Assembly (NCBI RefSeq): GCF_011801125.1
Contig: NZ_CP046171.1
Span: 3,410,001-3,474,000 of the forward strand
Direction: 5' to 3'
DNA: 64,000 nt
DNA from: Nocardia brasiliensis
Lineage (GTDB): Bacteria; Actinomycetota; Actinomycetes; Mycobacteriales; Mycobacteriaceae
A program made the translations under genes and the position numbers. This document shows positions 1 to 19,563 of the stretch, in pieces. The number at the start of each line of letters is the position of its first letter. Position 1 is the first letter of the stretch. Below the pieces are notes generated by a model. The model searched no databases, was not told the DNA's origin, and saw only the letters and a program-made list of their open reading frames with translations.

Positions 1-734
1 GCACGGGTGATCTGGCCCGGCGGCTGCCCGACGGCAGGCTCGTCTTCGTCGGTCGCAAGGACCGGCAGGTGAAGATCCGCGGGCATCGGGTGGAGCCGGG
101 GGAGGCCGAGACCTTCCTGCGCGCGCACCCGACGGTCGGTGAGGCGGCCGTTGTGCTCGACACCGACGCCGAGGTGCCCCGGTTGGTCGCCTACCTCACC
201 CAGGAGGGCCCGCTCGAACCCGACCATCTGGAGTTGTCGGCGTTCCTGCGAACCAGACTGCCCGACTACATGATTCCGTCGGCCTACATGGTGCTCGACC
301 GGTTGCCGCGCGGTCTCACCGGCAAGCTGGACCGGGCCAAGCTGCCGAAGCTCGCCCCGGCCGCGCCGCCGATCTACCTCCCGCCGAGCACGGAGCTCGA
401 ACGCGTGGTCGCCGAGGTGTGGGCGCAGGTGCTCGATCGCGAAGTCGGCCTCGGCCAGAACTTCTTCGACCTCGGCGGGCACTCGCTCGCGGTGGCCAGG
501 GTGCGCGGGCTGCTGGAGCGCCGGCTCGGCATCGAACTGGCGATGACCGACCTGTTCGCCGCGCCGACCGTCGACGGTCTGGCGAAGGCCCTGGCTGGGC
601 GGGCGAGCGCGCCCGAGGAGGCCGACCGCGGGCACGACCGGCGCGCGGCCGCGGCGCGCAGGCGGGCACACCGCCACAGTGCGGGCTCGCCCCCGCCACC
701 CCAGTCCGACGACGAGAGCCTGGATCCGCGATGA
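1..734 (+). CDS. Non-ribosomal peptide synthetase, C-terminal fragment (end of A domain plus PCP)
   Basis: This is the 3' end of a gene that begins outside the window; it is open from base 3. It starts inside the adenylation domain at core A7 (TGDLARR) and runs through A8 (KIRGHRVEPGE) and the A10 lysine loop (LTGKLDR). A peptidyl carrier domain follows, with the 4'-phosphopantetheine site DLGGHSL (Ser codon at 483-485). The last 45 or so residues are a charged, Arg/Pro-rich tail that may be a docking region. The stop overlaps the next start (ATGA). The specificity core lies outside the window, so the substrate is unknown. Collinearity suggests that the loaded amino acid is passed to the PKS module just downstream. 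Confidence 0.93.
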   Translation, partial: TGDLARRLPDGRLVFVGRKDRQVKIRGHRVEPGEAETFLRAHPTVGEAAVVLDTDAEVPRLVAYLTQEGPLEPDHLELSAFLRTRLPDYMIPSAYMVLDRLPRGLTGKLDRAKLPKLAPAAPPIYLPPSTELERVVAEVWAQVLDREVGLGQNFFDLGGHSLAVARVRGLLERRLGIELAMTDLFAAPTVDGLAKALAGRASAPEEADRGHDRRAAAARRRAHRHSAGSPPPPQSDDESLDPR

Positions 735-3712
735 CGCACGACGACAACGACTTCCGGATCGCCGTGACCGGCATGGCCTGCCGGTTCCCCGGCGCCGACA
801 CGGTCTCCGAGTACTGGCAGAACCTGTGCGCGGGGCGGGAATCGGTGGGTCCGCTCGCGCCGGAGACCATGCCCGCCGACCCGCCCGCCGGCTACGTGCA
901 CGTGGGCGCGGTGCTGGCGGACGCGGACAAGTTCGACGCGGAGTTCTTCGACATGAGCCCCCGTGAGGTCCAGCTGACCGACCCGCAGCAGCGGTTGTTC
1001 CTGCTGTGCGCGTGGGAGGCGCTGGAGGACAGCGGTCGGCTCGCCACCGAGAATCCGGGCGCGGTAGGCGTTTTCGCGGGCTCCGGCCTGAGCACCTACC
1101 TACTGCGCAACCTGGCCGGGCACGCGAGCCTGTTCCAGACACCGAGCTCGCAACTGCACGCCCTGCACGGCAACGCCTCGGATTACCTCGCCACCAGGGT
1201 CTCCTACAAGTTGAACCTGACCGGCCCGAGCTTCGCCGTGCAGACCGCGTGCTCGACGTCGCTGGTCGCGATTCATCAAGCGGCACAGGCCCTGCTCGAC
1301 TTCCAGTGCGACGTGGCGGTGGCGGGCGGAGCGAGCGTCCAGGTGCCGCAGCAGGCGGGCTACATCTACGAGGAGGGCTCGATCCTGTCTCCGGACGGGC
1401 ACTGCCGCGCCTTCGATGCCGAGGCCGGGGGCACGGTCTTCGGCTCCGGTGTCGGCGTCGTAGTGCTCAAGCGGCTCACCGACGCGCTCGCCGACGGCGA
1501 TCGGGTGCACGCCGTGATCCTCGGCTCCGCGGTGAACAACGACGGCGCCAACAAGATCGGCTACACCGCACCGGGCATCGCGGGCCAGCGCGCCGTCATC
1601 CGAGAAGCGTTGTCGGCGGCCGGTATCGGCGCCGACACCATCGGCTACGTCGAAGCGCACGGCACCGGAACCAAGCTGGGCGATCCGATCGAGATCGCGG
1701 CGCTCAGCGCCGCCTACCGCGAGCACACGGCCGCGACCGGGTACTGCGCGCTGGGATCGGTGAAATCCAATGTGGGTCACCTGAATTCCGCAGGCGGCGT
1801 CGCCGGTTTCATCAAAGCGGTGCTCGCGGTGCGCGACGGTCGCATTCCGGCGAGCCTGCATTACACGAGGCCGAATCCGGAGATCGACTTCGCGGCGAGC
1901 CCGTTCTATGTCAACACCGAGCTGACCGAGTGGCGCGATACGGTGCGGCGGGCGGGCGTGAGCGCGTTCGGCATCGGCGGCACCAACGCGCACGTCATCG
2001 TGGAACAGCCGCCGACCGCGACGCCGAGCGCGCAGGCGAGTGGCCCACGCGCGCTGCTGATCTCGGCGCGCACCGCGCAGGACGCCGACCGCGCCGCGGC
2101 CAGGCTGGCCGACCACCTCGACCACACCGAGGTCGAATTGGCCGCGGTCGCACACACCTTGGCGCATCGCAGGCGGGCGTTCGCGCATCGGCGCATGGTG
2201 GTGGCGAGCAGCTCGGCGCAGGCGGCGGCGGCACTGCGCAAGCCGGTGGCGGGCGAGGCGGTGCCCAACCCGGCACTGGCGTGGCTGTTCCCCGGCCAGG
2301 GCGTCGCGCTCGGTGCGGCGGTGCTCGAGCTCGCGGCCACCGTGGCGCCGTTCGGCCGCCGCCTGCGCGAGTGCGCGGAGCTGTTGCGTGCCGACGGTTT
2401 CGATCTGGACGCGGCGATCCGGCAGGCCGAGGGCACCGAGCAGAGCCAGGTCGCGCTGTTCGCGGTGGAGTACGCACTCGCGGGCATGTGGGGCGAGTTC
2501 GGCCTGGCGCAGGCCGAACTGCTCGGGCACAGCCTCGGCGAACTGGTGTGCGCCACCCTCGCCGGCGTCTTCACCTTGCCCGACGCGCTGCGCCTGATGG
2601 TCGAGCGCGGCCGGATCATGGCGGCCGCACCGCCCGGCGGGATGCTCGCGATCTCCAAGGGCGCGGACGCCGTGCTCGAGCGGCTGCCCGAGGACGTATG
2701 GCTGGCCGCCGACAACTCCGCGAACCGCTGCGTGGTCGCGGGCGCGCCTGCCGCATTGCTGCGGCTGTCCGCCGAATTGTCCGAGGAGGGCGCGGCGAGC
2801 TCGCCGCTGCCCGTCGGGCACGCGTTCCACACCCCGCTGATGGACGAGGCCGCGGCGCGGTTCGCGGAGCTGGTGCGCGGTGTGGCGCGCCAGGCGCCCC
2901 GGATCTCGTTCTGGTCGAACGTCACCGGCGCGCCGATCACCGCCGAGCAAGCGGTCGATCCGGCGTACTGGGCGCGGCAGATGTCGAGCACGGTCCGCTT
3001 CCGTACCGCCGCGCTGGGCCTGCTCGCCCGCAACCCGCACACCGTCGCGCTCGAGGTGGGGCCCGGCAAGTCGCTGGTCTCGTTCCTGCGCACCGCCGAT
3101 CGCGGGTCGGCCACGGTCGGCACGCTCGGCGTCGGACTCGGCGCGGGCGCGCCGGAAGCGGCGATCATCGAAGCGGCGGGCCGACTCTGGCTCGCCGGCG
3201 TAGCGGTCGACTTCGAGGCCGTCTACGGTGACCGCACCCCGGCGGCGGTGAGCCTGCCGACGTATCCCTTTGCGCTGAAGCGCTATTGGGTCGACCCGCC
3301 GGAGACCGCGCCGACCCTGGTCCGCACGGTCGCGCCGGCGCCGCCGGTCCCGCCCACCCCCGATCCGGCCGCGGCCGCCGGGGCCGAGGAGGACGAGTTC
3401 GTGGCCGCGGTGCGCCAGCGCGTGCACGCCGTGTGGTGTGCCGCTCTCGGTGTCGACACGGTGGGCGTCGACGCGAACTTCTTCGAACTGGGCGGCGATT
3501 CGCTGCTCGCGGTGCACGTCGCCACTCAGCTGCGCGCCATCTTCCCGCTGGAACTCGCGCTCGGCGAATTGTTCGCGGGGCCGACCGTGGCGGGGATGGC
3601 CGAAACCATTGCCGAGCACCTGATGCGGCGGTTGGACGAGCTGTCCGACGCCGAGGTCGAACTGCTGCTGAATCAGCCGGGGACGGCCGAAGAACGGAGC
3701 AACAATGCCTGA
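731..3712 (+). CDS. Type I polyketide synthase module KS-AT-ACP
   Basis: A 993-residue single-module PKS. The ketosynthase is at about 8-425 with the catalytic set Cys174 (TACSTS), His310 (EAHGTGT) and His350 (SNVGH). The acyltransferase is at about 540-850 with Ser601 in GHSLGE and HAFH at 697-700, the signature usually linked to malonyl-CoA. The ACP has Ser924 in LGGDSL. No ketoreductase, dehydratase or enoylreductase is present, so the module alone would leave a beta-keto group. The C-terminal stretch ELSDAEVELLL looks like a docking tail. I chose the ATG at 731 because it overlaps the previous stop and directly precedes the KS; the reading frame is open further upstream but runs antisense to sense with the NRPS. 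It overlaps the next gene by 8 bp. Confidence 0.95.
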   Translation: MTHDDNDFRIAVTGMACRFPGADTVSEYWQNLCAGRESVGPLAPETMPADPPAGYVHVGAVLADADKFDAEFFDMSPREVQLTDPQQRLFLLCAWEALEDSGRLATENPGAVGVFAGSGLSTYLLRNLAGHASLFQTPSSQLHALHGNASDYLATRVSYKLNLTGPSFAVQTACSTSLVAIHQAAQALLDFQCDVAVAGGASVQVPQQAGYIYEEGSILSPDGHCRAFDAEAGGTVFGSGVGVVVLKRLTDALADGDRVHAVILGSAVNNDGANKIGYTAPGIAGQRAVIREALSAAGIGADTIGYVEAHGTGTKLGDPIEIAALSAAYREHTAATGYCALGSVKSNVGHLNSAGGVAGFIKAVLAVRDGRIPASLHYTRPNPEIDFAASPFYVNTELTEWRDTVRRAGVSAFGIGGTNAHVIVEQPPTATPSAQASGPRALLISARTAQDADRAAARLADHLDHTEVELAAVAHTLAHRRRAFAHRRMVVASSSAQAAAALRKPVAGEAVPNPALAWLFPGQGVALGAAVLELAATVAPFGRRLRECAELLRADGFDLDAAIRQAEGTEQSQVALFAVEYALAGMWGEFGLAQAELLGHSLGELVCATLAGVFTLPDALRLMVERGRIMAAAPPGGMLAISKGADAVLERLPEDVWLAADNSANRCVVAGAPAALLRLSAELSEEGAASSPLPVGHAFHTPLMDEAAARFAELVRGVARQAPRISFWSNVTGAPITAEQAVDPAYWARQMSSTVRFRTAALGLLARNPHTVALEVGPGKSLVSFLRTADRGSATVGTLGVGLGAGAPEAAIIEAAGRLWLAGVAVDFEAVYGDRTPAAVSLPTYPFALKRYWVDPPETAPTLVRTVAPAPPVPPTPDPAAAAGAEEDEFVAAVRQRVHAVWCAALGVDTVGVDANFFELGGDSLLAVHVATQLRAIFPLELALGELFAGPTVAGMAETIAEHLMRRLDELSDAEVELLLNQPGTAEERSNNA

Positions 3713-6700
3713 ACTCGTCGACACCGGCGCCTCGCGCCGCGAACTGCTGCGGCGCTGGGTCGCGGGCAGCACCCCGCGCGCGGGCATCCCACGCCGTCCC
3801 GATCCCACCGCGGCCGCGCCGCTTTCGGCGGCACAGCAGCGGATCTGGTTCCTGGAGCAGCTGTTCCCCGAGCGCGCGACCTACACGATGCCGCTCGCGC
3901 TGCGGCTGCGCGGACACCTCGACATCGCCGCCCTGCAGGGCGCGCTGTCGCTGGTGGTGGCCAGGCACGAGTCGCTGCGCACCAGCATCGAAGTGCGCGA
4001 AGGGGTTCCGGTGCAGGTGGTCGGCCCGATCGCGCCGCTGCCGATGACCGTGGTCGGCCCGGCTCAACTCGATCCGACGCAGCCGCTCGCCGACGCGACG
4101 GCACAGGTCGAGCGGTTCAGCCGGACCGTGTTCGACCTGTCCGGCCCGCTGGTCGAGGTGCTGCTGGTGCGGCTCGCCGCCGACGACGCGATCTTCGCCG
4201 TCGCGATGCACCACATCATCTCCGACGGCTGGTCGCTCGGCGTGTTCGCCACCGAGCTGATGTCGGCCTACGCCGATCTCACCGCGGGGCGGCACGCGCC
4301 GGAGCTGCCGGAGCTGCCGCTGCAGTACCCCGACTACGCGGTCTGGCTGCGGGATCTCGCGCAGCGCGACAAGTTCGGCGCCGACCTCGACTACTGGCGC
4401 GGGGTGCTCGGTGACGAGCCGCCGCTGGTGACCTTCCATCCGGACCGGCCACGTGCGCTCGAGCCGGAGAATCGCGGCGCCCGCGTGCCGTTCACGATTC
4501 CCGCGCCGGTGCTGACCGGCCTGCGCAAGCTCGCCGACGAGGTCAGGGTGAACGAGCGCCCCGCGACGCTGTTCGTCGCGTTGATGGCCGGATTCAAGGC
4601 GCTGCTGCGGTATTACACCGGCGCCGAGGACATCACCGTCGGCACGCCGATCGCGGGGCGGAACCGGCCCGAGATCGAGCCGCTCATCGGATTCTTCGTC
4701 AACGCGCTGGCATTGCGGACCGACCTGTCCGGGTCGCCCACGTTCCGCGAGCTGCTGGCCCGCGAGCAGCGGGTGGTCTTCGACGCGTTCGATCATCAGG
4801 ATGCCCCGTTCGACCTCGTGGTCGAGCACGTGCGCCCGGACCGGGAACTGAGTCATTCGCCGCTGTTCCGCACCGCCGTCGTGCTGCAGAACACCAGCCT
4901 GCCCGAGCTCACCATCCCCGGGCTGAGCGCCGAGTACGTCGAAGTGCATTCGGGCACCACCAAATTCGATGTGCTGGTCACCCTGCGACAGGTCGGCGCC
5001 GAGCTGGTCGGCGCGTTCGAGTACGACGTCGACCTCTACGACGAGCCGACCGTGACCGCCATCGCCGCTCATTTCGTCGCGCTGCTGAGCGCGGTGGTCG
5101 CCGACCCGGATACCGCGTTGCCGGAACTGGATTTCCTCGAAAACGGTGAACGGCAGCGAGCGGTGGCCGCCGCGCTGCCGTGCACGCCTGCCGCCGAGGC
5201 GCGGCACACGCTGCACGAGTTGTTCGCGGTCCAGGCGGCAAAGACGCCGGAGGCGGTGGCGCTCACCTTCGGTGACAGTGCGCTGACCTACGCCGAACTG
5301 GCGACTGCCGCCGCCGAATTGGCGCAGCGGCTGCTGGCGCGCGGCGTCGGCCGCGGGTCGTTCGTCGGCATCCACCTCGAGCGCGGGGCCGATGTGGTGA
5401 TCGCGATCCTGGCCGTGCTGCGGGCCGGTGCCGCCTATGTGCCGCTTGACCCGATGTATCCGGCGGATCGGATCGAGTTCATGATCGCCGATTCCGGTGC
5501 GCGCCTGGTGATCAGCCACAGCTCACTGGTCGCCGGGACCGCGAGCACGGGTCCGGAGCTGCTGCTGATCGACGAGCAACCCGAGCGGTCCACGTCGGAT
5601 CTGCCGCTGCCGCAGGCCGAGCCGCACGATCCCTGCTACGTCATCTACACCTCCGGATCGACGGGTGTGCCGAAGGGGGTGGTCATCGAGCACGCCAACG
5701 TCGTTCGCCTGTTCTCGACCACCACCCGCTGGTACGACTTCGGCCCGCGCGACGTCTGGACGATGTTCCACTCCTACTCGTTCGATTTCGCGGTCTGGGA
5801 GATGTGGGGCGCGCTGCTCTACGGCGGCCGCCTGGTCGTGGTTCCGGGTTCGGTGAGTCGTTCCACCGCCGAGTTCGCGGATCTGCTCGCGCGCGAACGG
5901 GTCACGGTACTGAACCAGACCCCGTCCGCGTTCACGCAGCTGCTGCGCGCGCTGGAGAACGCACCCGCGACCGAACTCGCGGTGCGCTGGGTGATCTTCG
6001 GTGGCGAGGCGCTCGATCTCGCCATCCTGACCCCGTGGTTCGACCGCTTCGGCCAGGCCGCCCGACTGGTGAATATGTACGGCATCACCGAGACCACCGT
6101 GCACGTCACCTACCGCGAACTCACCAGGGCCGATGTGGAATCGGCGGCGGGCAGCCTGATCGGGGTGCCGCTGCCGGACCTCGGCGTGCTGATCGTCGAT
6201 CCGGCGGGTCGTCCCGTGCCCGACGGCGTGGCAGGGGAGATGCTGGTGTGCGGGCCGGGCGTCGGGCGCGGCTACCTGAACCGCGACGAGCTCACGGCCG
6301 AGCGCTTCGTGACCAGCCCGGTGCTCGACGGCAGGCGGGTCTATCGCACCGGCGATCTGGCCCGGCGCCGCGCCGACGGTGATCTCGAGTACCTGGGCCG
6401 CATCGATCAGCAGATCAAGGTGCGCGGCTTCCGGATCGAGCTCGGCGAGATCGAGGCGGCGATCACCGCGCACCCCGGCGTGGACCAGTCGGTGGTGCTC
6501 GCCCGCAAGGACACCGGCGGAAACGTCTCGCTGGTCGCGTATTTCACGCCGGGCGAGCAGGCCGCCGACGCGGCGGGGGCCGAACAGGACCAGGTCGCCA
6601 ACTGGCAGGTCGTCTTCAACAGCACCTATCGGCAGGGCCGGGACGGCGACGCCGATTTCGACATCTCCGGCTGGAACAGCTCCTACACCAACGCCGCCAT

Positions 6701-9344: not shown

Positions 9345-11107
9345 CCACGACACTGCTCACCGGGGGCGATATCGAATACGACACGCTCGTGCGCGCGCTG
9401 ACCAGGCAGGCCGCCCAGCGGCCGGACCGGCTCGCCTACAGCTTTCTGAGCTACCCGGATTCGACCTCGGCGCACGGGGTGACGGAGTCGCTCACCTACG
9501 CCGAAATCGACCGTGCGGCACGGGCTTACGCGGCGACGCTGCTCCAGGTGGCGCATCCCGGCGACCGGGCGGTGCTGCTGCTCCCGCCGGGACTGGAGTA
9601 TGTGAAGGCATTTTTCGGCTGCCTCTACGCCGGCATCATCGCGGTGCCGCTGTATCCGCCGAGCGCGCACAACTCCAACGGCCGCATCGACGCGGTGTGC
9701 GTCGACGCCGACCCGGCCTGCCTCGTCACCACCGACGACGCGCTGCCCAATGTGACCGCGTGGCTGGACAATTCACCGACCGACACCACCCGGCTGATCG
9801 TGACCACCGGCGAGGTGAACGAGCGGCTCGCGACTGACTGGGAGCCGGTGCTCGTCGACCGTGATCAGATCGCGCTGCTGCAGTACACCTCCGGCTCCAC
9901 CCGCACACCGGCCGGTGTGATGGTGCCGCACCGCGGCCTGCTCGCCAACGCCAGGCAGACCTACCAGATGATGTATCACGTTGGGGTCGGCCCGGAGGAC
10001 GAGGTGGGCTTCGTCAGCTGGCTGCCGCTGTTCCACGACATGGGCCTGATGGTCGGGGTGATCATGCCGATCATCAACGGCCACGGCGTGGTTCAGCTCT
10101 CGCCGACCTCGTTCCTGCGCAGGCCCGAGCGGTGGCTGCGGGCGATCAGCGACCATCCCGCCCAGGTCTTCGCGGCCTCGCCGAACGTCGGCTATGAGCT
10201 GTGCGCCGAGCGGGTCGGCCCCAAGGAACTCGACGGCATCGACCTGAGTCGCTGGCGCTACGCGCTCTCGGGCGCGGAACCGGTGCGGGTCAGCACGATC
10301 CGCAAGTTCCACGCCGCCTTCGCCGCACACGGCCTGGCCGAGTCGAGCCTGATCGCGGGCTACGGACTGGCCGAGGCGACGCTGCTGGTCTCGGTCAACT
10401 GGCGCACGCTCTCCGGCGTGCAGACACTCACCGTGGACCGGGAAGCGCTCGCCGCCGGGCACGTGGTGGCCGCGCAGGACGGCGCGGACATCGTCAGCGG
10501 TGGCGCCCCGGCGCCCGGCACCGAGGTCAGGATCGTCGATCCGGAGACCAAACAGCCGCTGCCGGAGAACCGGCTCGGCGAGATCTGGGTCAACGGCCCG
10601 TCACTGTGCTCCGGCTATTTCAACCGGCCCGCGGAGACCGAGGAGACCTTCCGCGCCGAACTCGCGCCGCGCGACGGCAAGTACTACCTGCGCACCGGTG
10701 ACATCGGATTCCTGCACGAGGGCGAGGTCTATCCGACCACCCGGCTCAAGGACCTGATCATCATCGACGGTCGCAATTACTACCCGCCCGATATCGAGGA
10801 CGCCGCGGAGCAGGCGCATCCGCTGGTGCTGCCGGGGCGCTGCTCGGCCTTCTCCATCGAGGTCGGCGTGCAGGAGAAGATCGTGGTGCTGGTCGAGGCC
10901 AGGATCCCCACCGACGACACCACCACCGCGCGGGAGCTGCGCAACGCGGTGCGCGAGGCCATCTTCCGGGTGCACGACGTCGGCGTGCACGAGGTGCTGC
11001 TGCTGAGCCCCGGCGGGATTCCGCGCACTTCCAGCGGCAAGATCCAGCGTTCGGCCTCACGCACCGCCTACCTCGACGGCACGCTGCGTGTGCGGGGTGC
11101 GAAATGA
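9341..11107 (+). CDS. Fatty acyl-AMP ligase (FAAL-type)
   Basis: A 588-residue ANL-superfamily enzyme. The ATP loop is YTSGSTRTPAG (Thr183 onward). Other family marks are GYGLAEATLLVS, LRTGDIGFLHEGE, the A8-like DLIIIDGRNYYPPDIE and the A10 lysine Lys567 (TSSGK). The IIIDGRNYYPxDIE stretch and the phrase PLFHDMGL are characteristic of FAALs, which adenylate a fatty acid and hand it to a carrier protein without making acyl-CoA. It begins at the ATG overlapping the NRPS stop. In this cluster it could start the assembly line with a lipid chain or charge the free ACP at 13795. Which carrier it serves cannot be told from the sequence. Confidence 0.92.
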   Translation: MTTTLLTGGDIEYDTLVRALTRQAAQRPDRLAYSFLSYPDSTSAHGVTESLTYAEIDRAARAYAATLLQVAHPGDRAVLLLPPGLEYVKAFFGCLYAGIIAVPLYPPSAHNSNGRIDAVCVDADPACLVTTDDALPNVTAWLDNSPTDTTRLIVTTGEVNERLATDWEPVLVDRDQIALLQYTSGSTRTPAGVMVPHRGLLANARQTYQMMYHVGVGPEDEVGFVSWLPLFHDMGLMVGVIMPIINGHGVVQLSPTSFLRRPERWLRAISDHPAQVFAASPNVGYELCAERVGPKELDGIDLSRWRYALSGAEPVRVSTIRKFHAAFAAHGLAESSLIAGYGLAEATLLVSVNWRTLSGVQTLTVDREALAAGHVVAAQDGADIVSGGAPAPGTEVRIVDPETKQPLPENRLGEIWVNGPSLCSGYFNRPAETEETFRAELAPRDGKYYLRTGDIGFLHEGEVYPTTRLKDLIIIDGRNYYPPDIEDAAEQAHPLVLPGRCSAFSIEVGVQEKIVVLVEARIPTDDTTTARELRNAVREAIFRVHDVGVHEVLLLSPGGIPRTSSGKIQRSASRTAYLDGTLRVRGAK

Positions 11108-12066
11108 CCACCGCGCTGTCCACCCACGGCGACAAGCTGACCTGTTTCACCGCGGCGTTGGCGAGTGCGCTGCTGGCCAGGGGCGAAACCCGCTGGTGGC
11201 GGCCGCTGCTCGCGGGCGGTCCGGTGCTGGCCGTCACGCCGGCGCCGCAGGAACTGCTGCTGTTCGAACACGATGCCGTCGCGCCGCTGCCCGCGCTCGG
11301 GTTCGGCGTGCGGGGCGAGGACGACTGGGCCACGGCCTACCACGCCATAGAAGAGGAAGTGGCCGAGCATGGTTCGGTGGTGCTGCTCGCCGACATCTTC
11401 CACCTGCCATGGCAGCACGGATATCGGAAATGGCACGCGCCGCACTGGCTGGCCATCGTGGCGACCCTCGACGGCTGGGTGGTGGAGGACCCGCTCACCA
11501 TGACCACCGAGCTGGGACCGCAAACCGGGCAACGGGTTCCGGTGACCTCGGCCGCCGAGCTGCGGTCCTGGTCGGTGAGCCTTGGCCCGGACGACACGGT
11601 CGCGTTGCTGCGCGAACAGGCGATGGCGGGCGCGCCGGAGATCGCGGTGGGCCGCACCTATCGCTGGCTGGAGACCCGTCCGGCCGAACGTCGCGCCCCG
11701 CGCCCGGATCGGTTGGTGGGCGCGGACGCGCTGGTCGCGCTGGCCAGCCGCTACCAATTCGCCGCGACCCCGGACGATTTCACCCAGCTCGACGACCTGT
11801 GGCAGGCGCTGCGCCAGCGCGAACTGCTGCTCTGGGCCGCGGAATTCGACGACGAGGTGCTCGACGACGCGGGCCGCGCGCACTGGGACCGCGCGGTCGC
11901 GCAGTGGCGCACCCTCCCGCCGTTGCTGATGCACGCCAGGATGCGCGCCGCCGCGGGCGGCACTGTGCAGACCGCGCTCATCGCCGAAACCCTGCTGGCC
12001 CTGGCCGAATACGAGGGCAAGCACCTCGCCTTCGCGCACCGCCGACCGGAAGGAACGTGGCGATGA
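11104..12066 (+). CDS. BtrH-like cysteine acyltransferase / papain-fold protein
   Basis: A 320-residue protein. The N-terminal half follows the pattern of BtrH-type proteins (butirosin acyl-ACP:aminoglycoside acyltransferase) and of papain-like folds: Cys14 in KLTCFTAALASAL, a GFG motif near 66-68, ADIFHLPW at 96-103, then His114 (HAPHWLAIV) and Asp129 (WVVEDP). Cys14-His114-Asp129 would form a triad. The C-terminal part is helical and acidic, with no motif I can name. ATGA overlaps on both sides put it in one operon with the FAAL and the FkbH-like gene. By analogy with BtrH it may move an acyl group from the nearby free ACP to the product. This is inference; a peptidase role is the alternative. 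Confidence 0.62.
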   Translation: MTTALSTHGDKLTCFTAALASALLARGETRWWRPLLAGGPVLAVTPAPQELLLFEHDAVAPLPALGFGVRGEDDWATAYHAIEEEVAEHGSVVLLADIFHLPWQHGYRKWHAPHWLAIVATLDGWVVEDPLTMTTELGPQTGQRVPVTSAAELRSWSVSLGPDDTVALLREQAMAGAPEIAVGRTYRWLETRPAERRAPRPDRLVGADALVALASRYQFAATPDDFTQLDDLWQALRQRELLLWAAEFDDEVLDDAGRAHWDRAVAQWRTLPPLLMHARMRAAAGGTVQTALIAETLLALAEYEGKHLAFAHRRPEGTWR

Positions 12067-13805
12067 CCGCCGACATCGCGGTGCGACTGGCACCCGCCGA
12101 CGGCTACCTCGCGTGGACCCAGCACGCGAAAACACTGTCCCGCGAGGCGATCCCGCCCAGTCCAGGCGTCCGATTGGCGGTGCTGGCGACCTACACCACC
12201 GACTTCCTCACCGAGCTGCTGCCGCTGGCCTGCGCCCGCGCCGGGCTGAACGCCGAGCTGCTCGAATTCCCGTTCGGACAGGTCGAGCAGGTGCTGCTCG
12301 CGCCGCAGACGCCATTGCGCGAAGGCGATTACGTCGTCCTCGCGGGCACCCACCACGACGTCACCGGCGCGGTCGAGGAGACCGTGGATCGCTGGGTCGG
12401 GCTGTGGGACGCCGCGGCCCGCTCCGGGGTCCGCGTCGTGCAACTCGGGTTCGCACCGCCGGCGGTCGACGCCTACGGCGCGGCCGCCTGGCGCACCCCG
12501 CAGTCGCTGTCGCATCGGGTGCGCGAGGTCAATACGCGCCTGGCCGAACAGGCGGCGGGCCGGGTGCTGTTCGTCGACGTGGAACAGCTCGCCGCACAGG
12601 TGGGATTGCGGCACTGGGAGGACCCGCGCAGTTGGTATCGGGTGCGCCAGCCGTTCGCGGCGGACAGCCTGCCGTGGCTGGCCGCCGCGATCGCCGATAC
12701 GGTCGCGGCCGACCGCGGCCGCTCCGCGCGGTGCGTGGTGGTCGACCTCGACGGCACTCTGTGGGGTGGCGTCCTCGGCGACGACGGCATCGACGGCATC
12801 CGGGTCGGGACCGGCGCCGATGGTGAGGCCTTCGCCGAGTTCCAGCGCTACCTGCGCGCGCTCACCGAGCGCGGCGTGCTGCTCGCGGTGGCCAGCAAGA
12901 ACGATCGTGAGCTGGCGCTGCGCGCCATCGACGAGGCGCCGGGCATGGTGCTGCGGGTCGCCGACTTCACCCATATCGTCGCCGACTGGCGGCCGAAATC
13001 CGAACAGCTCCAGGAGATCTCGCAGAAGATTCGGCTCGGGCTCGGCAGCATCGCGTTCGTCGACGACAACCCGGCCGAGTGCGCGCAGGTCCGGGCCGCG
13101 CATCCCGAGGTGCGCGCGCTGTGCCTGCCCGAGGCGCCCGCGAAGTTCCGCGCCGCGCTGGCCGCGTTGCCCTGGCTGCACCCCGGCGCGCTGTCCAGCG
13201 AGGATTTCGCGCGCCAGCGCTCCTACCAGGCGCTGGCCGCCGCCGAGCGGATCGTGACGGACAACCTGGACGAATTCCTGGCGAGCCTGGAGATGGTCGC
13301 GGTGATCGAACCGATCAACAGCACCACGGTGGACCGGGCCGCGCAGCTGATCGCCAAGACCAACCAGTTCAACCTGACCACCCGCAGGCATACCCAGAGC
13401 CAGGTGCGCAAGATGGCCGAGGACCCGCGCTGGTTCACCGCGATCCTGCGCCTGCGGGACCGATTCGCCGACCACGGCATCGTCGGCGTGCTGCTGGCCG
13501 AGCAGCACGGCGCTGCGGTCGAGATCGACACCCTGCTGCTGAGCTGCCGGGTGATCGGCCGTAACGCCGAACACAATCTGCTCGCCGCGGCCGCCGAATG
13601 GGCGCTGGCGCAGGGGAGTTCGCGATTGGTGGGCCGGTATCTCCCGACCGCCCGCAACGCGCTGGTGCGCGAGCTGTACCCCCAGCACGGCTTCACGCTG
13701 GAAGCGGAGTCGGAACAGGGGGCGGTATACGGATTCGACCTGACGGGCGGCGCGCCTGCGCGCAGTCCGCACGTGCGAGAGGCGCAGACCCAACATGGCT
13801 ACTGA
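12063..13805 (+). CDS. FkbH-like HAD-IIIC protein (glyceryl-ACP type)
   Basis: A 580-residue protein with the three-part FkbH layout: an N-terminal SGNH-like region (about 25-210), a HAD phosphatase domain with nucleophile motif DLDGT at 228-232 (LWGGVLGDDG follows) and SIAFVDDNPAE later, and a GNAT-like C-terminal part. FkbH proteins take 1,3-bisphosphoglycerate, dephosphorylate it and load glyceryl on a dedicated ACP. Such an ACP starts 11 bp before this gene ends. The FkbI/FkbK dehydrogenases and the O-methyltransferase that would turn glyceryl-ACP into methoxymalonyl-ACP are absent here. The glyceryl unit, if made, must have another fate. Some FkbH relatives act on other substrates. Confidence 0.88.
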   Translation: MTADIAVRLAPADGYLAWTQHAKTLSREAIPPSPGVRLAVLATYTTDFLTELLPLACARAGLNAELLEFPFGQVEQVLLAPQTPLREGDYVVLAGTHHDVTGAVEETVDRWVGLWDAAARSGVRVVQLGFAPPAVDAYGAAAWRTPQSLSHRVREVNTRLAEQAAGRVLFVDVEQLAAQVGLRHWEDPRSWYRVRQPFAADSLPWLAAAIADTVAADRGRSARCVVVDLDGTLWGGVLGDDGIDGIRVGTGADGEAFAEFQRYLRALTERGVLLAVASKNDRELALRAIDEAPGMVLRVADFTHIVADWRPKSEQLQEISQKIRLGLGSIAFVDDNPAECAQVRAAHPEVRALCLPEAPAKFRAALAALPWLHPGALSSEDFARQRSYQALAAAERIVTDNLDEFLASLEMVAVIEPINSTTVDRAAQLIAKTNQFNLTTRRHTQSQVRKMAEDPRWFTAILRLRDRFADHGIVGVLLAEQHGAAVEIDTLLLSCRVIGRNAEHNLLAAAAEWALAQGSSRLVGRYLPTARNALVRELYPQHGFTLEAESEQGAVYGFDLTGGAPARSPHVREAQTQHGY

Positions 13806-14043
13806 TGTGATGGAGCAGTTGCTCGAGCTGTTCGCCGAGGTGGTCGGCGAGCCGGCCGCCCACGGCCCCGACACCGTCCGCGCCGACATGGACACCTGGG
13901 ATTCCCTGGCGCAGGTCCGGTTGGTGTACGCGGTGGAACGCGCGTTCGCGGTGGAGCTTCCGGAGCGCACGCTCACCTCGGAACCGACGCTGGCCGAACT
14001 CGCCGCCGCCGTGGTTGCCGCACGGCGGGAGCGGGTGTCATGA
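13795..14043 (+). CDS. Free-standing acyl carrier protein
   Basis: An 82-residue acidic four-helix carrier protein. The phosphopantetheine attachment serine is Ser37 in TWDSLAQVRL. WDSL instead of the more usual DSL after a loop is typical of ACPs paired with FkbH proteins. It overlaps the FkbH-like gene by 11 bp and the MaoC-SDR gene by 4 bp, which argues for coupled translation. It is the likely acceptor for the FkbH product and the likely donor for the BtrH-like transferase. Loading by the FAAL is an alternative. Confidence 0.9.
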   Translation: MATDVMEQLLELFAEVVGEPAAHGPDTVRADMDTWDSLAQVRLVYAVERAFAVELPERTLTSEPTLAELAAAVVAARRERVS

Positions 14044-15587
14044 GCGCGCGCGTGTTCCGCGTGACCGACACCGATGTGGCGACCTACGCGGCCGCCACCG
14101 GCGATCGCAATCCGTTGCACGTGGACAACGATTTCGGTCACCGCTCGCCCTACGGCAGGCCGGTGGCGCACGGTGCGCTGGTGGTGACCCTGGCGCTGGC
14201 CGCGCTCGCCGAGACCACCGATCCGATGGCGGTGCGCGACATCCGGGCGACCTTCCGGCAGCCGACGATTCCCGGCCGCCGCTACGAGGTGGACTGGACG
14301 GTGTCGGAAAGCGAAGCCCGTGGTCGGGTCAGCTTCGGTGGGATCGAGGTGGTCGGCATCCGGTGCAGGCTCGGTTCGGTGCTGCCGTGGTGCGGGCCGG
14401 CGGCCGCGGACGAGCCGCGCCGCGAGGCGCCGCGCGTGCTCGGATTGGCAGATCTGGCAGGCGATTCCGCGCAGGCGCCGGGCGCGGAGCGCGGGACCTA
14501 CTCGGTGGACTACCCGTTGATCGCCGCGCTGGTGTCGCGGGTGATCGGTGGGCGCGTGCCCGAACACGTCGCCGCCGTGCTCGGCTGGGCCAGCTACTGG
14601 ACCGGCATGTGCACCCCGGGCCGGGACGCGCTGCTCGTCGCGGCGTCGGTGGTGTTGCACGGGTCCGGTTCCGGTGCGGTCGAGTTCGACACCGCGGCGC
14701 CCGAGGTGGACCGGCGCTCGGGTCTGGTCACCCTGCGGGCAGGCATGCGCTGCGGCGCCAGCGCCGATGTCACCGTGCAGAGTCTGATCAGAGAGTCGGT
14801 GCCCGGGCCAGATCCGAAGGAGCTGGCCGCCGTGCTGCCGCCCTCGGAGCGGCTCGCCGGCCGCACCATCCTGGTCGTCGGCGGCAGCCGGGGCCTCGGC
14901 GCGGCCGTCTCCCTGGGCCTGGCCAGTCAAGGGGCGCGGGTGCTGGTGAGCTGTACCCGCGCGCCCGAGGTGCTCGCCGCGGCCTCGCACGCCTATCGGG
15001 ACCGGCTGTGTCCGGTGCTCGCCGACGCAAGCGACGGTTACGCGCTCGGCGCGGCATTGCCCGAAGGACGGCTCGACGGCGTGGTTCTGCTTGCGGCACC
15101 GGCGATTCCGACCTTGCCGCTGGCGCCGGACGCGGTCGAGACCGCCGCGCAGTTCATGGCCGCGAGCACCCGGCTGGTCTTCGCGCCGCTGTCGGTGTGC
15201 GTGCCACGGCTCAACAAGGGGGCCACCGTGGTGTTGATCTCGTCGGAGGCGGTGCTCGCCCCGCCGCGCTGGTGGCCGCACTACGCGGCGTCCAAGGCGG
15301 CGGTCGAGGGGCTGGCGGAATACGTTGCGCGCCACCATCCGTGGCACGTGGTGGTGGTCCGTCCACCGCGGCTGTGGACCGATCTGACCAACACCCCGGG
15401 TGGGCGTGCGGTGAGCAACCCCATCGCCCCGGTCGCCGCCGATATCGTCAACGCCTTCTCCGCCGAAGATGCTGTCGCCGGGGAAGTTTCGGTACTCGGC
15501 GCGGCCGGATGGGGCGCGCCGTGGCCACTGCTGAGCGAGGAGGTGCGCGATGCTGGAGATCTCCGGTCTGAGCAAGTCGTACGGTAA
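14040..15587 (+). CDS. MaoC-like hydratase / SDR reductase fusion
   Basis: A 515-residue two-part enzyme. The N-terminal half is a hot-dog (MaoC) dehydratase with the hydratase motif GDRNPLHVD at 21-29, followed by a second, more diverged hot-dog-like stretch to about 265. The C-terminal half is a short-chain dehydrogenase with the nucleotide loop GGSRGLG starting at Gly281 and the catalytic pair Tyr415/Lys419 (YAASK). The PKS module upstream has no reducing domains. A ketoreductase plus dehydratase acting in trans is therefore the simplest role, giving an alpha,beta-unsaturated unit. It might instead act on the free ACP. No fusion partner resembling ER was seen. Confidence 0.82.
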   Translation: MSARVFRVTDTDVATYAAATGDRNPLHVDNDFGHRSPYGRPVAHGALVVTLALAALAETTDPMAVRDIRATFRQPTIPGRRYEVDWTVSESEARGRVSFGGIEVVGIRCRLGSVLPWCGPAAADEPRREAPRVLGLADLAGDSAQAPGAERGTYSVDYPLIAALVSRVIGGRVPEHVAAVLGWASYWTGMCTPGRDALLVAASVVLHGSGSGAVEFDTAAPEVDRRSGLVTLRAGMRCGASADVTVQSLIRESVPGPDPKELAAVLPPSERLAGRTILVVGGSRGLGAAVSLGLASQGARVLVSCTRAPEVLAAASHAYRDRLCPVLADASDGYALGAALPEGRLDGVVLLAAPAIPTLPLAPDAVETAAQFMAASTRLVFAPLSVCVPRLNKGATVVLISSEAVLAPPRWWPHYAASKAAVEGLAEYVARHHPWHVVVVRPPRLWTDLTNTPGGRAVSNPIAPVAADIVNAFSAEDAVAGEVSVLGAAGWGAPWPLLSEEVRDAGDLRSEQVVR

Positions 15588-16509
15588 GAAGCAGGTGCTC
15601 ACCGGCGTCGACCTGGTCGTGCGCCCCGGTGAGATCGTCGGCTTGCTCGGACCGAATGGTGCGGGCAAGACCACGACCGCCTCGATCGTCGCGGGCCTGA
15701 CGCCCGCCGACGCGGGGACGGTCCGCATCGACGAGATCGACCTCGCCGCCGAACCGCGCCGCGCCCGGCGCAAGCTGGGCTTCGCGCCCCAGGAACTCGG
15801 CGTCTATCCCACGCTGACCGCGCGGGAGAACCTGACCTTCTTCGGCAGGCTGATGGGCGTGGGCCGCAGGGAGCTACCCGGACGGATCGACGAGGTCGCC
15901 GCGCGCCTCGGCATCACGCCCTTCCTCGCCACCCGGGCGCATCAGCTCTCGGGCGGACAGCAGCGGCGGCTGCACACCGCGATGGCGCTGCTGCACGAAC
16001 CCGATGTGCTGTGGCTGGACGAGCCGACCGTCGGCGCGGACGTCTCGGCTCGCCAAGACCTGCTCGACGAGGTGCGCAACCTCGCCGACCGCGGCGCCGC
16101 GGTGGTGTACGCGACGCACTATCTCCCGGAACTCGAGGTGCTCGGGGCTCGGGTCGTCGTCCTGCATCAGGGCCGAATCCTGGCCCAGGGCAGTGCCGCC
16201 GAGCTGATCGAGCGGCACGCGCAGGCGGCGGTGAGCCTCGAGTTCGCGACCGAGGTTCCCGCGAGTCTCGGCGGGTTCCTCGCCGCGCCGGGCGCCGAGG
16301 TGCTCGACGCGCGCCGCTTGGTCATTCCGACGAGCACGCCGGGACAACTGCTCGCGCAGCTGTTCACCACGCTGGACACCGACACCGAGCAACTGCTTGC
16401 CGCCGAGATCCAGCACCCCGATTTGGAGAACGCCTATCTGGCGATCATGCGCGCGGCCGCGGCCGGCGCCGAGCCGCCCGCCGAAGGGATCCGAGATGCT
16501 GTTGCATGA
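15550..16509 (+). CDS. ABC transporter ATP-binding protein (drug-export type)
   Basis: A 319-residue ATPase. Walker A is GPNGAGKTT at 34-42, the signature is LSGGQQRR, and Walker B is VLWLDEPTVGAD. It belongs to the DrrA/NodI-like group that pairs with ABC-2 permeases. The start is the ATG preceded by a GAGGAGGTG ribosome site; the gene overlaps the preceding coding sequence by 38 bp. With the permease gene that follows it most likely exports the cluster product or gives self-protection. Confidence 0.93.
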   Translation: MLEISGLSKSYGKKQVLTGVDLVVRPGEIVGLLGPNGAGKTTTASIVAGLTPADAGTVRIDEIDLAAEPRRARRKLGFAPQELGVYPTLTARENLTFFGRLMGVGRRELPGRIDEVAARLGITPFLATRAHQLSGGQQRRLHTAMALLHEPDVLWLDEPTVGADVSARQDLLDEVRNLADRGAAVVYATHYLPELEVLGARVVVLHQGRILAQGSAAELIERHAQAAVSLEFATEVPASLGGFLAAPGAEVLDARRLVIPTSTPGQLLAQLFTTLDTDTEQLLAAEIQHPDLENAYLAIMRAAAAGAEPPAEGIRDAVA

Positions 16510-17287
16510 CTCCGCCGTCGATCGGGTGCGCGCGCTGTCCTGGGCCGATCTGCGCCGGATCCGGTCGGACCCGGCACAGCTCATCGTGCTCACGGTGCTT
16601 CCCATCGGCATGATGGCGTTCCTGACCCCGGCGAACAAGGCGCAGCTGCGCTTCTTCGGCGGGTTCCCCAACGCCAGCGGCATCGAGCAGGCGGGGCCGG
16701 GCACCATCGTGATGTTCGCGTTCTTCATCACGACCCTGCTCGGCGCCTCGTTCTTCCGCGAACACGAGTGGGGCACCTGGGACCGGCTGCGCGCCGCACC
16801 CGTGCGCGCCGGCGAGATCATCCTCGGTAAATCGCTGCCGTCGGTGCTGTTCTCGCTGGCGCACCTGAGCATCCTGTGGGTGGTCGCGTTCACGCTGTGG
16901 GACCTGCGCAGCAAGGGATCGGTCTGGCTGCTGCTGCCGATCAGCGCGTCGCTCATGGCCGCGACCTGGGGGTTCGGTATCGCCCTTGTCTCGCTGTGCC
17001 GCACCATCGATCAGCTCTCGATCATGGCGCAGGTCGGCTCGCTGGCCATCGGCGGGCTGGCGGGCACGATCACCCCGCGGGACACGCTGCCGGGCTGGGC
17101 GCAGGCCTTGTCGCCGTTCACGCCGCAGTACTGGGCGCTGAAGGGGTACCAGGACGTCATCCTGCGCGGGGCCGGCTTCGGGGACATCGTCGAACCGTGC
17201 CTGATCCTGCTCGGGGTCGGTGTGGTCGGCGGGCTGATCGCGCTGTTCCGGTTCCGGCTCAGCCACAGCAAGGTCGGCCGCAGCTGA
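16496..17287 (+). CDS. ABC-2 type transporter permease
   Basis: A 263-residue membrane protein with about six hydrophobic segments, including LIVLTVLPIGMMAFL near 28-42, TIVMFAFFITTLLGA, and a final ILLGVGVVGGLIALF. The motif FREHEWGTWDRLRAAP is the usual ABC-2 coupling loop. The start is the ATG 14 bp before the ATPase stop. It is the last gene of the biosynthetic run; the next gene lies on the other strand, 3 bp away, so the cluster ends here on the right side. Confidence 0.92.
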   Translation: MLLHDSAVDRVRALSWADLRRIRSDPAQLIVLTVLPIGMMAFLTPANKAQLRFFGGFPNASGIEQAGPGTIVMFAFFITTLLGASFFREHEWGTWDRLRAAPVRAGEIILGKSLPSVLFSLAHLSILWVVAFTLWDLRSKGSVWLLLPISASLMAATWGFGIALVSLCRTIDQLSIMAQVGSLAIGGLAGTITPRDTLPGWAQALSPFTPQYWALKGYQDVILRGAGFGDIVEPCLILLGVGVVGGLIALFRFRLSHSKVGRS

Positions 17288-17290
17288 GGG

Positions 17291-17797
17291 CTATTCGATG
17301 GGCTGGGTGATGGCGTTGTGCTCGTCGTTGATCAGGTGAAAGGCCGAGGCCAGGTCGTCCAGGGCGGTCTGCCAGAGCGATTCGGTGCCGTCGCCGTGCG
17401 GATTTCCGCTGCTCAAGGAGAGCAGCACCTGCGCGGCCTCGGCGGCTCGGGCCGCGGCGTCGAGCAGCACCGGCGCCTGATCGGAGGTGTGGCGCGGGGC
17501 CAGCGCGTCGATCCGGTTGTGCAGCCAGTGCGCGTCGAAATGCGCCTGTTCGGTGGCGTTCTCGCCGTCCAGGGCGGACTGGGTGCTCGCCGCCGTCCAG
17601 CGGCGAGCCAATTCCTGCTGGTCCGGGGTGTTGGTCACGGCACTGCGCAGTTCACTGCTGAACACCCGCTGTAGCAGCGCCGCGAGCTTGGCGCGCTCGA
17701 CCGCAGGATCGATGCCGTCGGTGACGAGGGCATCGGTCTCGCCGGGGTCGATGTTCAGTACCGCCAGAATTGCCCTCAGCTGCGCGATCGTCGCCAC
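17291..17797 (-). CDS. Hypothetical helical protein
   Basis: A 168-residue, soluble, alanine-rich, largely helical and acidic protein. I do not recognise a family. It starts at GTG, with CAGGGG a few bases upstream as a weak ribosome site. Its 3' end nearly touches the 3' end of the ABC permease (3 bp apart), so the two transcripts converge. No signal peptide, membrane segment or catalytic motif is visible. Codon use is like the neighbours, which supports real coding. Confidence 0.6.
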   Translation of the reverse strand: MATIAQLRAILAVLNIDPGETDALVTDGIDPAVERAKLAALLQRVFSSELRSAVTNTPDQQELARRWTAASTQSALDGENATEQAHFDAHWLHNRIDALAPRHTSDQAPVLLDAAARAAEAAQVLLSLSSGNPHGDGTESLWQTALDDLASAFHLINDEHNAITQPIE

Positions 17798-17941
17798 TCA
17801 ACCCCTGCCTGTCTGCCTCGCCGAGCCGCTCCTCGGCACCACCCGACCCCCGTACACGGAAACGATTAACCAAATGATAGCCGCACGGTCTCATCGTGGC
17901 ACCGCAAACGCCGCGCGAATCGTTCGGCGCACAATGCGTGT

Positions 17942-18217
17942 TGGCTATGGCACGCAACCGATCTCGTCGTGGCCGCCGGCTTCGCGCCGCATGGTCGCGA
18001 GGTCGCGCTGGCCACCGTGTGGGGTCCGGTCGCCCGCGACTTCGATATCGCGCCGTACGACGAGGCCTGGTTCGACGCCGCCGCCGACGCCGTGCTCGTC
18101 ACCGGCAAGCCGGTGTTCGCGGAGTTCGCGCACCTGTGGCGGGTGGCCGATGGCAAGATCAGCGGGCTGCATCAGTACACCGACACCTGGTGCTGGCGCA
18201 CCGCACTGGCCGCCTGA
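17942..18217 (+). pseudogene. C-terminal remnant of a SnoaL/NTF2-like protein
   Basis: The end of this open stretch (PVFAEFAHLWRV, DGKISGLHQYTDTWCW) is the typical last two strands of SnoaL-like proteins, which are about 130 residues long. The N-terminal helices are missing, and the middle looks shortened just before TGKPV. There is no convincing start: the first usable codon is GTG at 17969 with no ribosome site. I read it as a decayed gene fragment. A short functional protein of 82 residues from 17969 is less likely. Confidence 0.4.
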
Positions 18218-18365
18218 GCGACTCGGGGTGCCGGGTGGGCCCGGTGGGCACATGCTGACCTCGTTCCGAAACATCGATGCCTTCACATCTGAGTTCGGTT
18301 CGGTCACCCCGTTGGATTGTCGACACGTCGAAACAATCTCGGCGGTCTGTTTCCGGTTCGGATGA

Positions 18366-18666: not shown

Positions 18667-19563
18667 TCAGTTGACGCGCGGCGCGGTTCCGCCAGGGAAG
18701 ACGGCGCGCTGGGCGGTAGCGTATTCGGCCTGGATCTTGTAGTAGCGATCGGTGGGCCCGTACGCGGTGTAGAAGACGAACCCGCGGGTGGCCGGGTCGG
18801 CGAAGGGCGCGCCATCGACGAAGCGGGCAAGCACTGGATGCAGGTGGGCCGGAAAGTGCGCGGGTTGAAGGCGCAGCGGGAAGCAAATGCGTTGCATGCG
18901 TGGGGAAGTCCAGGAGAAGGTGCGGTAGAGATTGAAGGCGCCGCCGAGCAGCCCGAGCTCTTCCTCGGTGGCCGCGGTGAACTCGAGATCGGCCAGGATG
19001 GTGGCGATCTCGGCCGCGTCGAGGGTGCCCGGCTCGAACACATTCGAGTACAGATTCATCGTGCGGGCCGCGAAATCCACCGCGAGAATGCCGATCTTGC
19101 CGCCGTAGCGGGACAGGTGCGCGGCGTGTGCGCGGGCCGACTCCGGCATGCCGGGAAAGGCGAGCATCCGTTGCACGTCCATCAGTTCGGGGAAGATCAG
19201 CCAGATCTTCTGGATGCCGCCGGTGAGTGCGACGTCGACACCGGCATGGGCCGGCCCGGCCGCGCAGACGGCGGCAAGGAGCTCCTCCATCGGATGTCCG
19301 GTGTAGGTGAGCAATTCGGCCGCGCGGAGCCTGGTGATCAGTTCGGTCGGCGCGCCGGGATTCATCACCCGCACATTGACGTCACGCTCGGATACGGGGT
19401 GCGTCGTGGTGCGCACGGCGACAGCGGAATTCGTCCACAGATCGGCGAGTGTCTCCAGCACCGGATCGGTGACCGCGGGGTCGTAGCGGACCTCGGCGAG
19501 GCGGGCGAACTCGCCGAGATCCCGGCGCAGTCCATCGAGCGTCACCAGCGTGGAAGAACTCAT
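18667..19563 (-). CDS. ABBA-fold aromatic prenyltransferase (NphB/CloQ type)
   Basis: A 298-residue soluble prenyltransferase, the normal length for the family. Blocks matching NphB are LTYTGHPMEELLA (about 85-97), TGGIQKIWLIFPE (114-126), MNLYSNVF (169-176), MQRICFPLR (223-231) and YYKIQAEYATAQR (274-286). Residues that bind diphosphate and Mg in NphB have counterparts here: Asp61, Lys119, Asn170, Tyr172, Arg225 and Lys276. Retention of Asp61 suggests a metal-dependent NphB-like enzyme rather than a metal-free CloQ-like one. It has a good ribosome site (GAGGTG). The acceptor would be an aromatic ring; no aromatic biosynthesis gene is adjacent, so the acceptor is unknown. It is separated from the PKS-NRPS cluster by about 1.4 kb. 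Confidence 0.87.
   Translation of the reverse strand: MSSSTLVTLDGLRRDLGEFARLAEVRYDPAVTDPVLETLADLWTNSAVAVRTTTHPVSERDVNVRVMNPGAPTELITRLRAAELLTYTGHPMEELLAAVCAAGPAHAGVDVALTGGIQKIWLIFPELMDVQRMLAFPGMPESARAHAAHLSRYGGKIGILAVDFAARTMNLYSNVFEPGTLDAAEIATILADLEFTAATEEELGLLGGAFNLYRTFSWTSPRMQRICFPLRLQPAHFPAHLHPVLARFVDGAPFADPATRGFVFYTAYGPTDRYYKIQAEYATAQRAVFPGGTAPRVN

Follow-up and report, generated by a model that had tools for sequence, protein, structure and literature searches.

The closest described systems are the vioprolide and corramycin assembly lines, in which the order FAAL-ACP-C-FkbH-T (FAAL being a fatty acyl-AMP ligase) installs a glycerate unit (PMC8949500, PMC10099666). Vioprolide has this glycerate esterified with its fatty acid (PMC8949500, PMC10099666), and its FkbH domain has been shown to activate D-3-phosphoglycerate, with the 1,3-bisphosphate proposed (PMC10099666). 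Foxicin synthase has its C-FkbH after PKS modules and before a PCP-TE (PMC5318452), and loading of glycerate onto an NRPS by FkbH is also thought to occur for suomilide and varlaxin (PMC10143770). Tetronate pathways use an FkbH-like protein and a free ACP, from which the glycerate is taken by a FabH-like protein (PMC4979870). Many orphan hybrids are reported among the gene clusters of Nocardia, and FkbH has 0 occurrences in the available text of either account (PMC4035055, PMC7413640).

The locus described here is from Nocardia brasiliensis, whose genome is a single contig of 7.95 Mb. The window, i.e., the whole stretch of DNA that was analysed (G000:C1:3410001-3474000), is 64,000 nucleotides long. 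An operon of 11 genes spans G000:C1:3402409-3427287 (window -7591 to 17287) in the order PksA-NrpsB-PksC-NrpsD-FAAL-BtrH-like-FkbH-ACP-MaoC/SDR-ABC ATPase-ABC membrane subunit (Table 1). The left window edge falls inside NrpsB, with PksA and most of NrpsB in the ~7.6 kb upstream. Like the vioprolide and corramycin lines, as the available parts of their accounts describe them, this one combines a fatty acyl-AMP ligase start with a C domain, an A-less carrier and FkbH chemistry. Unlike theirs, the Nocardia FkbH is a protein of its own, accompanied by its own ACP, a MaoC-SDR fusion and a BtrH-like transferase, and the C domain comes after a KS-AT extension. Since FkbH is a separate gene, the Nocardia module can be said to work like a vioprolide-type module, not to be a member of that type. 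In the excerpted accounts of vioprolide, corramycin and foxicin the C-FkbH-T unit follows a fatty-acyl or PKS carrier, and the A-less C-T of Nocardia likewise follows KS-AT-T. Foxicin synthase shares with it an actinobacterial origin and a C domain with FkbH chemistry behind a PKS carrier, but the foxicin FkbH is fused, the chain and its release are different, and a MaoC-SDR is not named in the available text.

In the methoxymalonyl-ACP pathway a free FkbH-like protein and ACP-bound glycerate lead to an extender unit. The Nocardia operon resembles both this pathway and the tetronate pathways, as far as the available text describes them, in its stand-alone FkbH-like protein and a free ACP that would carry glycerate; their FabH-like or extender partner genes, however, are absent from it. 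What would be new here is the trans-acting supply of a C3 acid to an A-less module, the general kind of cluster being already known. The openly licensed literature without supplements yielded neither a characterised product for this cluster nor any report of FkbH together with MaoC, which is weak evidence of absence.

Table 1. Features of the operon and its right flank (window coordinates unless stated otherwise).
Feature	Position	Strand	Remarks
NrpsB 3' end	1..734 (gene G000:C1:3405683-3410734, from window -4317)	+	C1-T1-C2-A-T2, 1683 aa
PksC	725..3712	+	KS-AT-T (Pfam, NCBIfam); AT motif HAFH
NrpsD	3705..9344	+	C-A-MT-T-R; A code DFWNIGMVHK; reductase with YxxxK
FAAL, fatty acyl-AMP ligase	9341..11107	+	model matches below cut-off
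BtrH-like acyltransferase	11104..12066	+	C14, H114, D129 at least 90% conserved in 43 relatives; putative triad
FkbH	12063..13805	+	N-terminal domain, HAD-IIIC phosphatase (DLDGTLWGG), GNAT-like part; predicted glyceryl transferase
Free acyl carrier protein of cassette	13795..14043	+	
MaoC-SDR fusion	14040..15587	+	MaoC hydratase part and SDR part
ABC transporter ATPase	15550..16509	+	Pfam/NCBIfam
ABC-2 type membrane subunit	16397..17287	+	first TTG listed; real start perhaps further downstream
Orf2-type aromatic prenyltransferase	18667-19563	-	just past operon

PksA, the gene before NrpsB, encodes a PKS of 1103 aa in which KS and AT are flanked by a carrier at either terminus. With Pfam and NCBIfam the domain order of the line reads FAAL; ACP-KS-AT-ACP; C-T (no A); C-A-T; KS-AT-T; C-A-MT-T-R. 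There are two KS-AT modules in line (PksA and PksC) and one A-less module (that of NrpsB T1). No KR, DH or ER was detected in PksA or PksC with Pfam, and the AT motif of PksC is presumably of the malonyl type. The FAAL matches fatty acyl-AMP ligase models with E down to 1e-148, yet stays under their cut-offs; it is likely to load the N-terminal carrier of PksA. The adenylation codes were taken from an alignment anchored on GrsA positions, the final K being a convention. The NrpsB code is DALHAGLVAK in 10 of 13 clusters and DALHGGLVAK in 3 of 13, with no match known to us. The NrpsD codes are DFWNIGMVHK (11/15 clusters), DFWNVGMVHK (3/15) and DFWSVGMVHK (1/15), and fit the threonine code.

A sequence-only reading of this DNA had described a hybrid assembly line, and this is borne out, all of the gene types that it named being present in the window (Pfam, NCBIfam). 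Its collinear interpretation with one malonyl extension set the left boundary wrongly, as only 244 codons of the 1683-aa NrpsB were in view; its chain start and number of extensions are not supported, because two upstream genes lay out of view. Its proposals for the other end of the chain have held up better. The reductive release agrees with a thioester reductase (TIGR01746, 304.8 bits against a cut-off of 213.35) whose YxxxK is kept in 15 of 15 clusters by motif count. N-methyl-threonine as the likely last residue agrees with a Thr-type NrpsD code in all 15 and with an MT embedded in the NrpsD A domain (Pfam). The exporter genes (15550-17287), which that reading left unnamed, are of the ABC type.

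The cluster is well conserved among relatives. A BtrH relative is present in 16 of 150 Nocardia genomes (own counted). All 11 genes were found in identical order in 12 other Nocardia genomes, including G131, where the PksA start lies beyond the fetched stretch; G080 and G090 have a partial cluster as far as contig ends permit. Among the 15 other BtrH-bearing genomes, G111 is the one with the cassette alone, so that the cluster occurs in 15 of 150 (own counted, two cut by contig ends). Since 12 other genomes share the gene order and 2 more share it in part, it is not due to chance. The dN/dS values of 0.05-0.44 for every one of the 11 genes (own genome against four relatives) indicate that they are under purifying selection. 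The domain maps of the relatives rest on profiles derived from the loci themselves, with confirmation by Pfam for the own NRPS genes, the Kitasatospora genes and the G111 relic described below, but not for the remainder of G111. The FAAL, FkbH, ACP, BtrH-like and MaoC-SDR genes had been regarded as a loose addition to the line, a view not supported, given the joint recurrence of four of them elsewhere as a cassette.

The first NrpsB module, C1-T1, has no A domain in the own protein (Pfam), and the same A-less arrangement was seen in 13 of 13 complete clusters (own counted). Between C1 and T1 there are 18-21 residues in nine clusters and 129-315 in four. Both other cassette-bearing NRPS loci, those of Kitasatospora and G111, also have an A-less C-T, which makes 3 of 3 architectures. 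In Kitasatospora 15 residues separate C from T. In G111 there are 167, including an adenylation C-terminal part (PF13193, 30.9 bits, cut-off 24.5), and no AMP-binding core was found in this spacer with Pfam. The relic of an adenylation domain (L071:13459-13956, C-terminal subdomain only) adjoins the cassette. As a control, the own genome has 52 C domains of at least 200 bits, and 4 of them, C1 itself included, have no A directly following. The association of cassette and A-less module comes from three independent architectures only, a small number, and the comparison is an informal one. In both the Nocardia and Kitasatospora lines the gene for the A-less C-T comes directly after a KS-AT-T gene.

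Shared ancestry of the C domains that precede A-less carriers was considered, and a quick tree of 82 C domains gave no joint clade. The Nocardia C1 domains formed their own long branch, apart from those of G111 and Kitasatospora. This argues against a single ester-forming clade; repeated loss of the A domain stays compatible with it.

The four clusters with long spacers (G131, G092, G136, G018) conserve the 129-315 residues between C1 and T1, and in G131 the spacer holds a repeat of ~14 residues. A profile comparison with 8 cluster genes gave no match that would make the spacer a relic of a cluster gene, and the single spacer examined of the four had no Pfam match.

The cassette consists of the BtrH-like, FkbH, free ACP and MaoC-SDR genes. 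The FkbH assignment is firm by score (TIGR01686, 276.8 bits against a cut-off of 146.65; HAD-SF-IIIC, 70.1 against 35.75). The window protein scores under the Pfam BtrH_N cut-off (20.6 vs 29.7 bits) and is for that reason called BtrH-like, not BtrH; 20 of its 43 aligned relatives match BtrH_N (E up to 0.01). Its conserved Cys-His-Asp is what we take to be the triad of BtrH-type acyltransferases. In butirosin biosynthesis, the acyl group that BtrH transfers comes from a carrier protein. The window protein would resemble it in belonging to a family that accepts acyl groups from carrier proteins, with distant sequence similarity, and would differ in acceptor and acyl group; taken alone it stays below the Pfam cut-off. 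Its closest relatives are N. brasiliensis proteins, mostly of 88-90% identity, and named records holding close relatives include N. brasiliensis, N. vulneris, N. altamirensis and others. In the MaoC-SDR fusion the active-site residues D22 and H27 (MaoC) and S401, Y415 and K419 (SDR) are conserved across 34 relatives. Residue conservation in these two proteins was taken from alignments, not from regex counts. Narrow regex patterns miss the free-ACP site in G131, G018, G092, G136 and G090 and the SDR site in G131, G092 and G090, as well as several sites in cassettes elsewhere.

When PDB sequences were compared with the BtrH-like profile, the sole match was 7wuw (AziU3), a weak one (E 0.0077) around the conserved His region. 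AziU3 is perhaps a distant relative of the BtrH-like protein.

From domain order, motifs and synteny a pathway can be proposed. The FAAL would charge the N-terminal carrier of PksA, whose KS-AT would add a malonyl unit. Meanwhile FkbH would transfer glyceryl from 1,3-bisphosphoglycerate onto the free ACP, and the MaoC-SDR would dehydrate glyceryl-S-ACP to 2-hydroxyacryloyl, i.e., pyruvoyl, and then probably reduce this to lactyl-S-ACP. The BtrH-like cysteine transferase would hand the lactyl group to T1 of the A-less module as acceptor. C1 would couple the extended fatty acyl chain to the hydroxy acid, probably as an ester like that of vioprolide. C2-A-T2 would then add one amino acid, PksC a malonyl unit and NrpsD N-methyl-threonine, before the reductase frees an aldehyde next to a beta-ketoamide methylene. 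We infer that the arrangement may be the counterpart in trans of the vioprolide-type C-FkbH-T module.

The chain may end in a free aldehyde. Because PksC has no ketoreductase, a beta-ketoamide would lie opposite the aldehyde on release, and ring closure could then give a 3-acyl-pyrrolin-2-one. In fungal PKS-NRPS systems of the cytochalasan type, R-domain release leaves a beta-ketoamide on an amino aldehyde. The Nocardia line would be alike in this respect; unlike the fungal enzymes it is bacterial and multi-protein and would use N-methyl-threonine, and ring closure by analogy with them is a proposal. The aldehyde may thus cyclise to an N-methyl-3-acyl-5-(1-hydroxyethyl)pyrrolin-2-one, persist, or be reduced.

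We regard the operon as a conserved Nocardia cluster, its product uncharacterised, for an exported lipid-peptide-polyketide with a lipid chain, a cassette-made C3 unit on T1 and a Thr-type end. This explanation as a whole is given a probability of roughly 45%. A more tentative idea is that the portable cassette makes lactyl-S-ACP and loads A-less NRPS modules, and elsewhere acylates aromatic polyketides and glycosides. Neither estimate is higher because independent architectures are few and because the weak BtrH relative in G686 has no FkbH within 19.9 kb. For the lactyl step bryostatin may offer a parallel, its lactyl group being derived via an FkbH loading module. No confirmed precedent for this step, bryostatin included, was found in the openly licensed literature. 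If the proposal is true, an NRPS carrier would be fed from glycolysis via a relay of stand-alone enzymes that replaces the A domain, and an NRPS would incorporate a hydroxy acid without adenylation. The BtrH-like protein and the MaoC-SDR fusion would each have a testable role, and the cassette could be used as it stands to introduce lactate or glycerate units when lipopeptides and polyketides are engineered.

The cassette is also found outside the full cluster, and there its neighbours vary. Of seven strong loci of this kind, five have FkbH and ACP after BtrH, and four of those five also have MaoC-SDR. These four complete cassettes are in G111 (= L071), Kitasatospora aureofaciens CPD02 (with one extra SDR gene in between), Streptomyces lincolnensis L4 and Streptomyces sp. 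NRRL B-1347. In a Micromonospora record, FkbH and ACP are accompanied by two BtrH genes and a glycosyltransferase, and MaoC-SDR is missing. The two Streptomyces loci (L067 and L069) contain tandem KS genes of the type II PKS kind, L067 also a cyclase-O-methyltransferase and an FAD ring hydroxylase, which suggests an aromatic polyketide bearing a glycerate-derived acyl group. No FkbH turned up in the DNA scanned around the BtrH genes of Salinispora oceanensis and Antrihabitans cavernicola; for the latter gene a contig end is only 1 kb away, and the scan covered 10 kb downstream. The BtrH relatives without FkbH are those of L065 and L070, plus the weakly scoring one of L112/G686 (19.9 kb scanned). 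BtrH searches gave 4 of 401 genomes at the family level and 3 of 396 at the phylum level (own counted in each); the phylum-level matches besides the own are weak, that of G686 being the stronger.

At L070 (S. oceanensis DSM 45547) the BtrH-like gene is near two DUF1702 genes and a P450, a setting that we take to be enediyne-like. Other acceptors must be assumed for the BtrH-like proteins of the type II PKS, glycoside and enediyne-like loci.

Such acceptors could be relevant in Nocardia itself. The cassette might make a glycerate-derived acyl group that the BtrH-like protein attaches to the chain or the released product at a hydroxyl or amine, e.g., on the threonine side chain, with T1 charged by the NrpsB A domain or passive. 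Butirosin BtrH acylates an amine, the cassettes beside type II PKS and glycosyltransferase genes imply small-molecule acceptors, and in G111 the A domain after the A-less carrier is also of the Thr type (DFWNVGMVHK). Direct acylation of this sort would leave the missing A domain in 3 of 3 cassette-bearing NRPS architectures unexplained, and at the Kitasatospora locus 0 of 2 A domains read have a Thr-type code. We consider it unlikely, though the strongest of the alternatives.

The missing KR and DH of PksA and PksC could be explained in another way, if the MaoC-SDR were a trans-acting ketoreductase-dehydratase for the beta-ketoacyl chain of PksA and FkbH delivered glyceryl only. The distribution of the fusion makes this improbable. 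The 31.6-kb contig of G111 has a MaoC-SDR and no KS was found on it. At the order level, relatives of MaoC-SDR (E up to 1e-60) occur in 6 other genomes of 348 searched, and in 4 of the 6 the gene is within ~1 kb of FkbH. Of the other two, L107 had no FkbH in 19.9 kb, and the remaining relative is on a 6.7-kb contig that terminates in the MaoC-SDR gene. The adjacency in distant genomes points to FkbH chemistry, not a PKS, as the context of the fusion. At the phylum level, with the same E, 1 of 396 genomes was found (own counted). A scan of viral contigs for MaoC-SDR gave nine weak and partial matches, which were set aside.

One of the loci with MaoC-SDR and FkbH (L106, G1024:C23:277000-296900) has them beside a class II DAHP synthase and a C-A-T, and also holds a chorismate-binding enzyme fused to glutamine amidotransferase. 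Benzoxazolinate is a model for a C3 unit on an aminobenzoate, and by analogy the product of L106 may have such a unit joined to aminobenzoate.

The protease- or proteasome-reactive warhead suggested earlier, a threonine-type aldehyde or alcohol with the extra genes independent, fits the Thr-type code, the MT and the intact reductase motif, but is demoted here to the least probable alternative, since the chain begins upstream of the window, 12 complete relatives retain the extra genes alongside the line, and no protease or proteasome subunit is found among the 11 operon genes with Pfam.

To return to the preferred lipid-peptide-polyketide operon, its limits are suggested by the flanking genes. 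A flanking MFS gene is found in 0 of 15 relative stretches and the prenyltransferase just past the operon in 4 of 15. The latter was excluded as a cluster member on this count, its matches of 80-81% identity being confined to G029, G143, G030 and G031. An ORF at 17487-18365 has no Pfam or NCBIfam family, partial conservation and odd composition, and was judged spurious. Elsewhere in the genome, a single open frame of 14,621 aa (G000:C1:6992888-7035793, minus strand) encodes many NRPS C and A domains.
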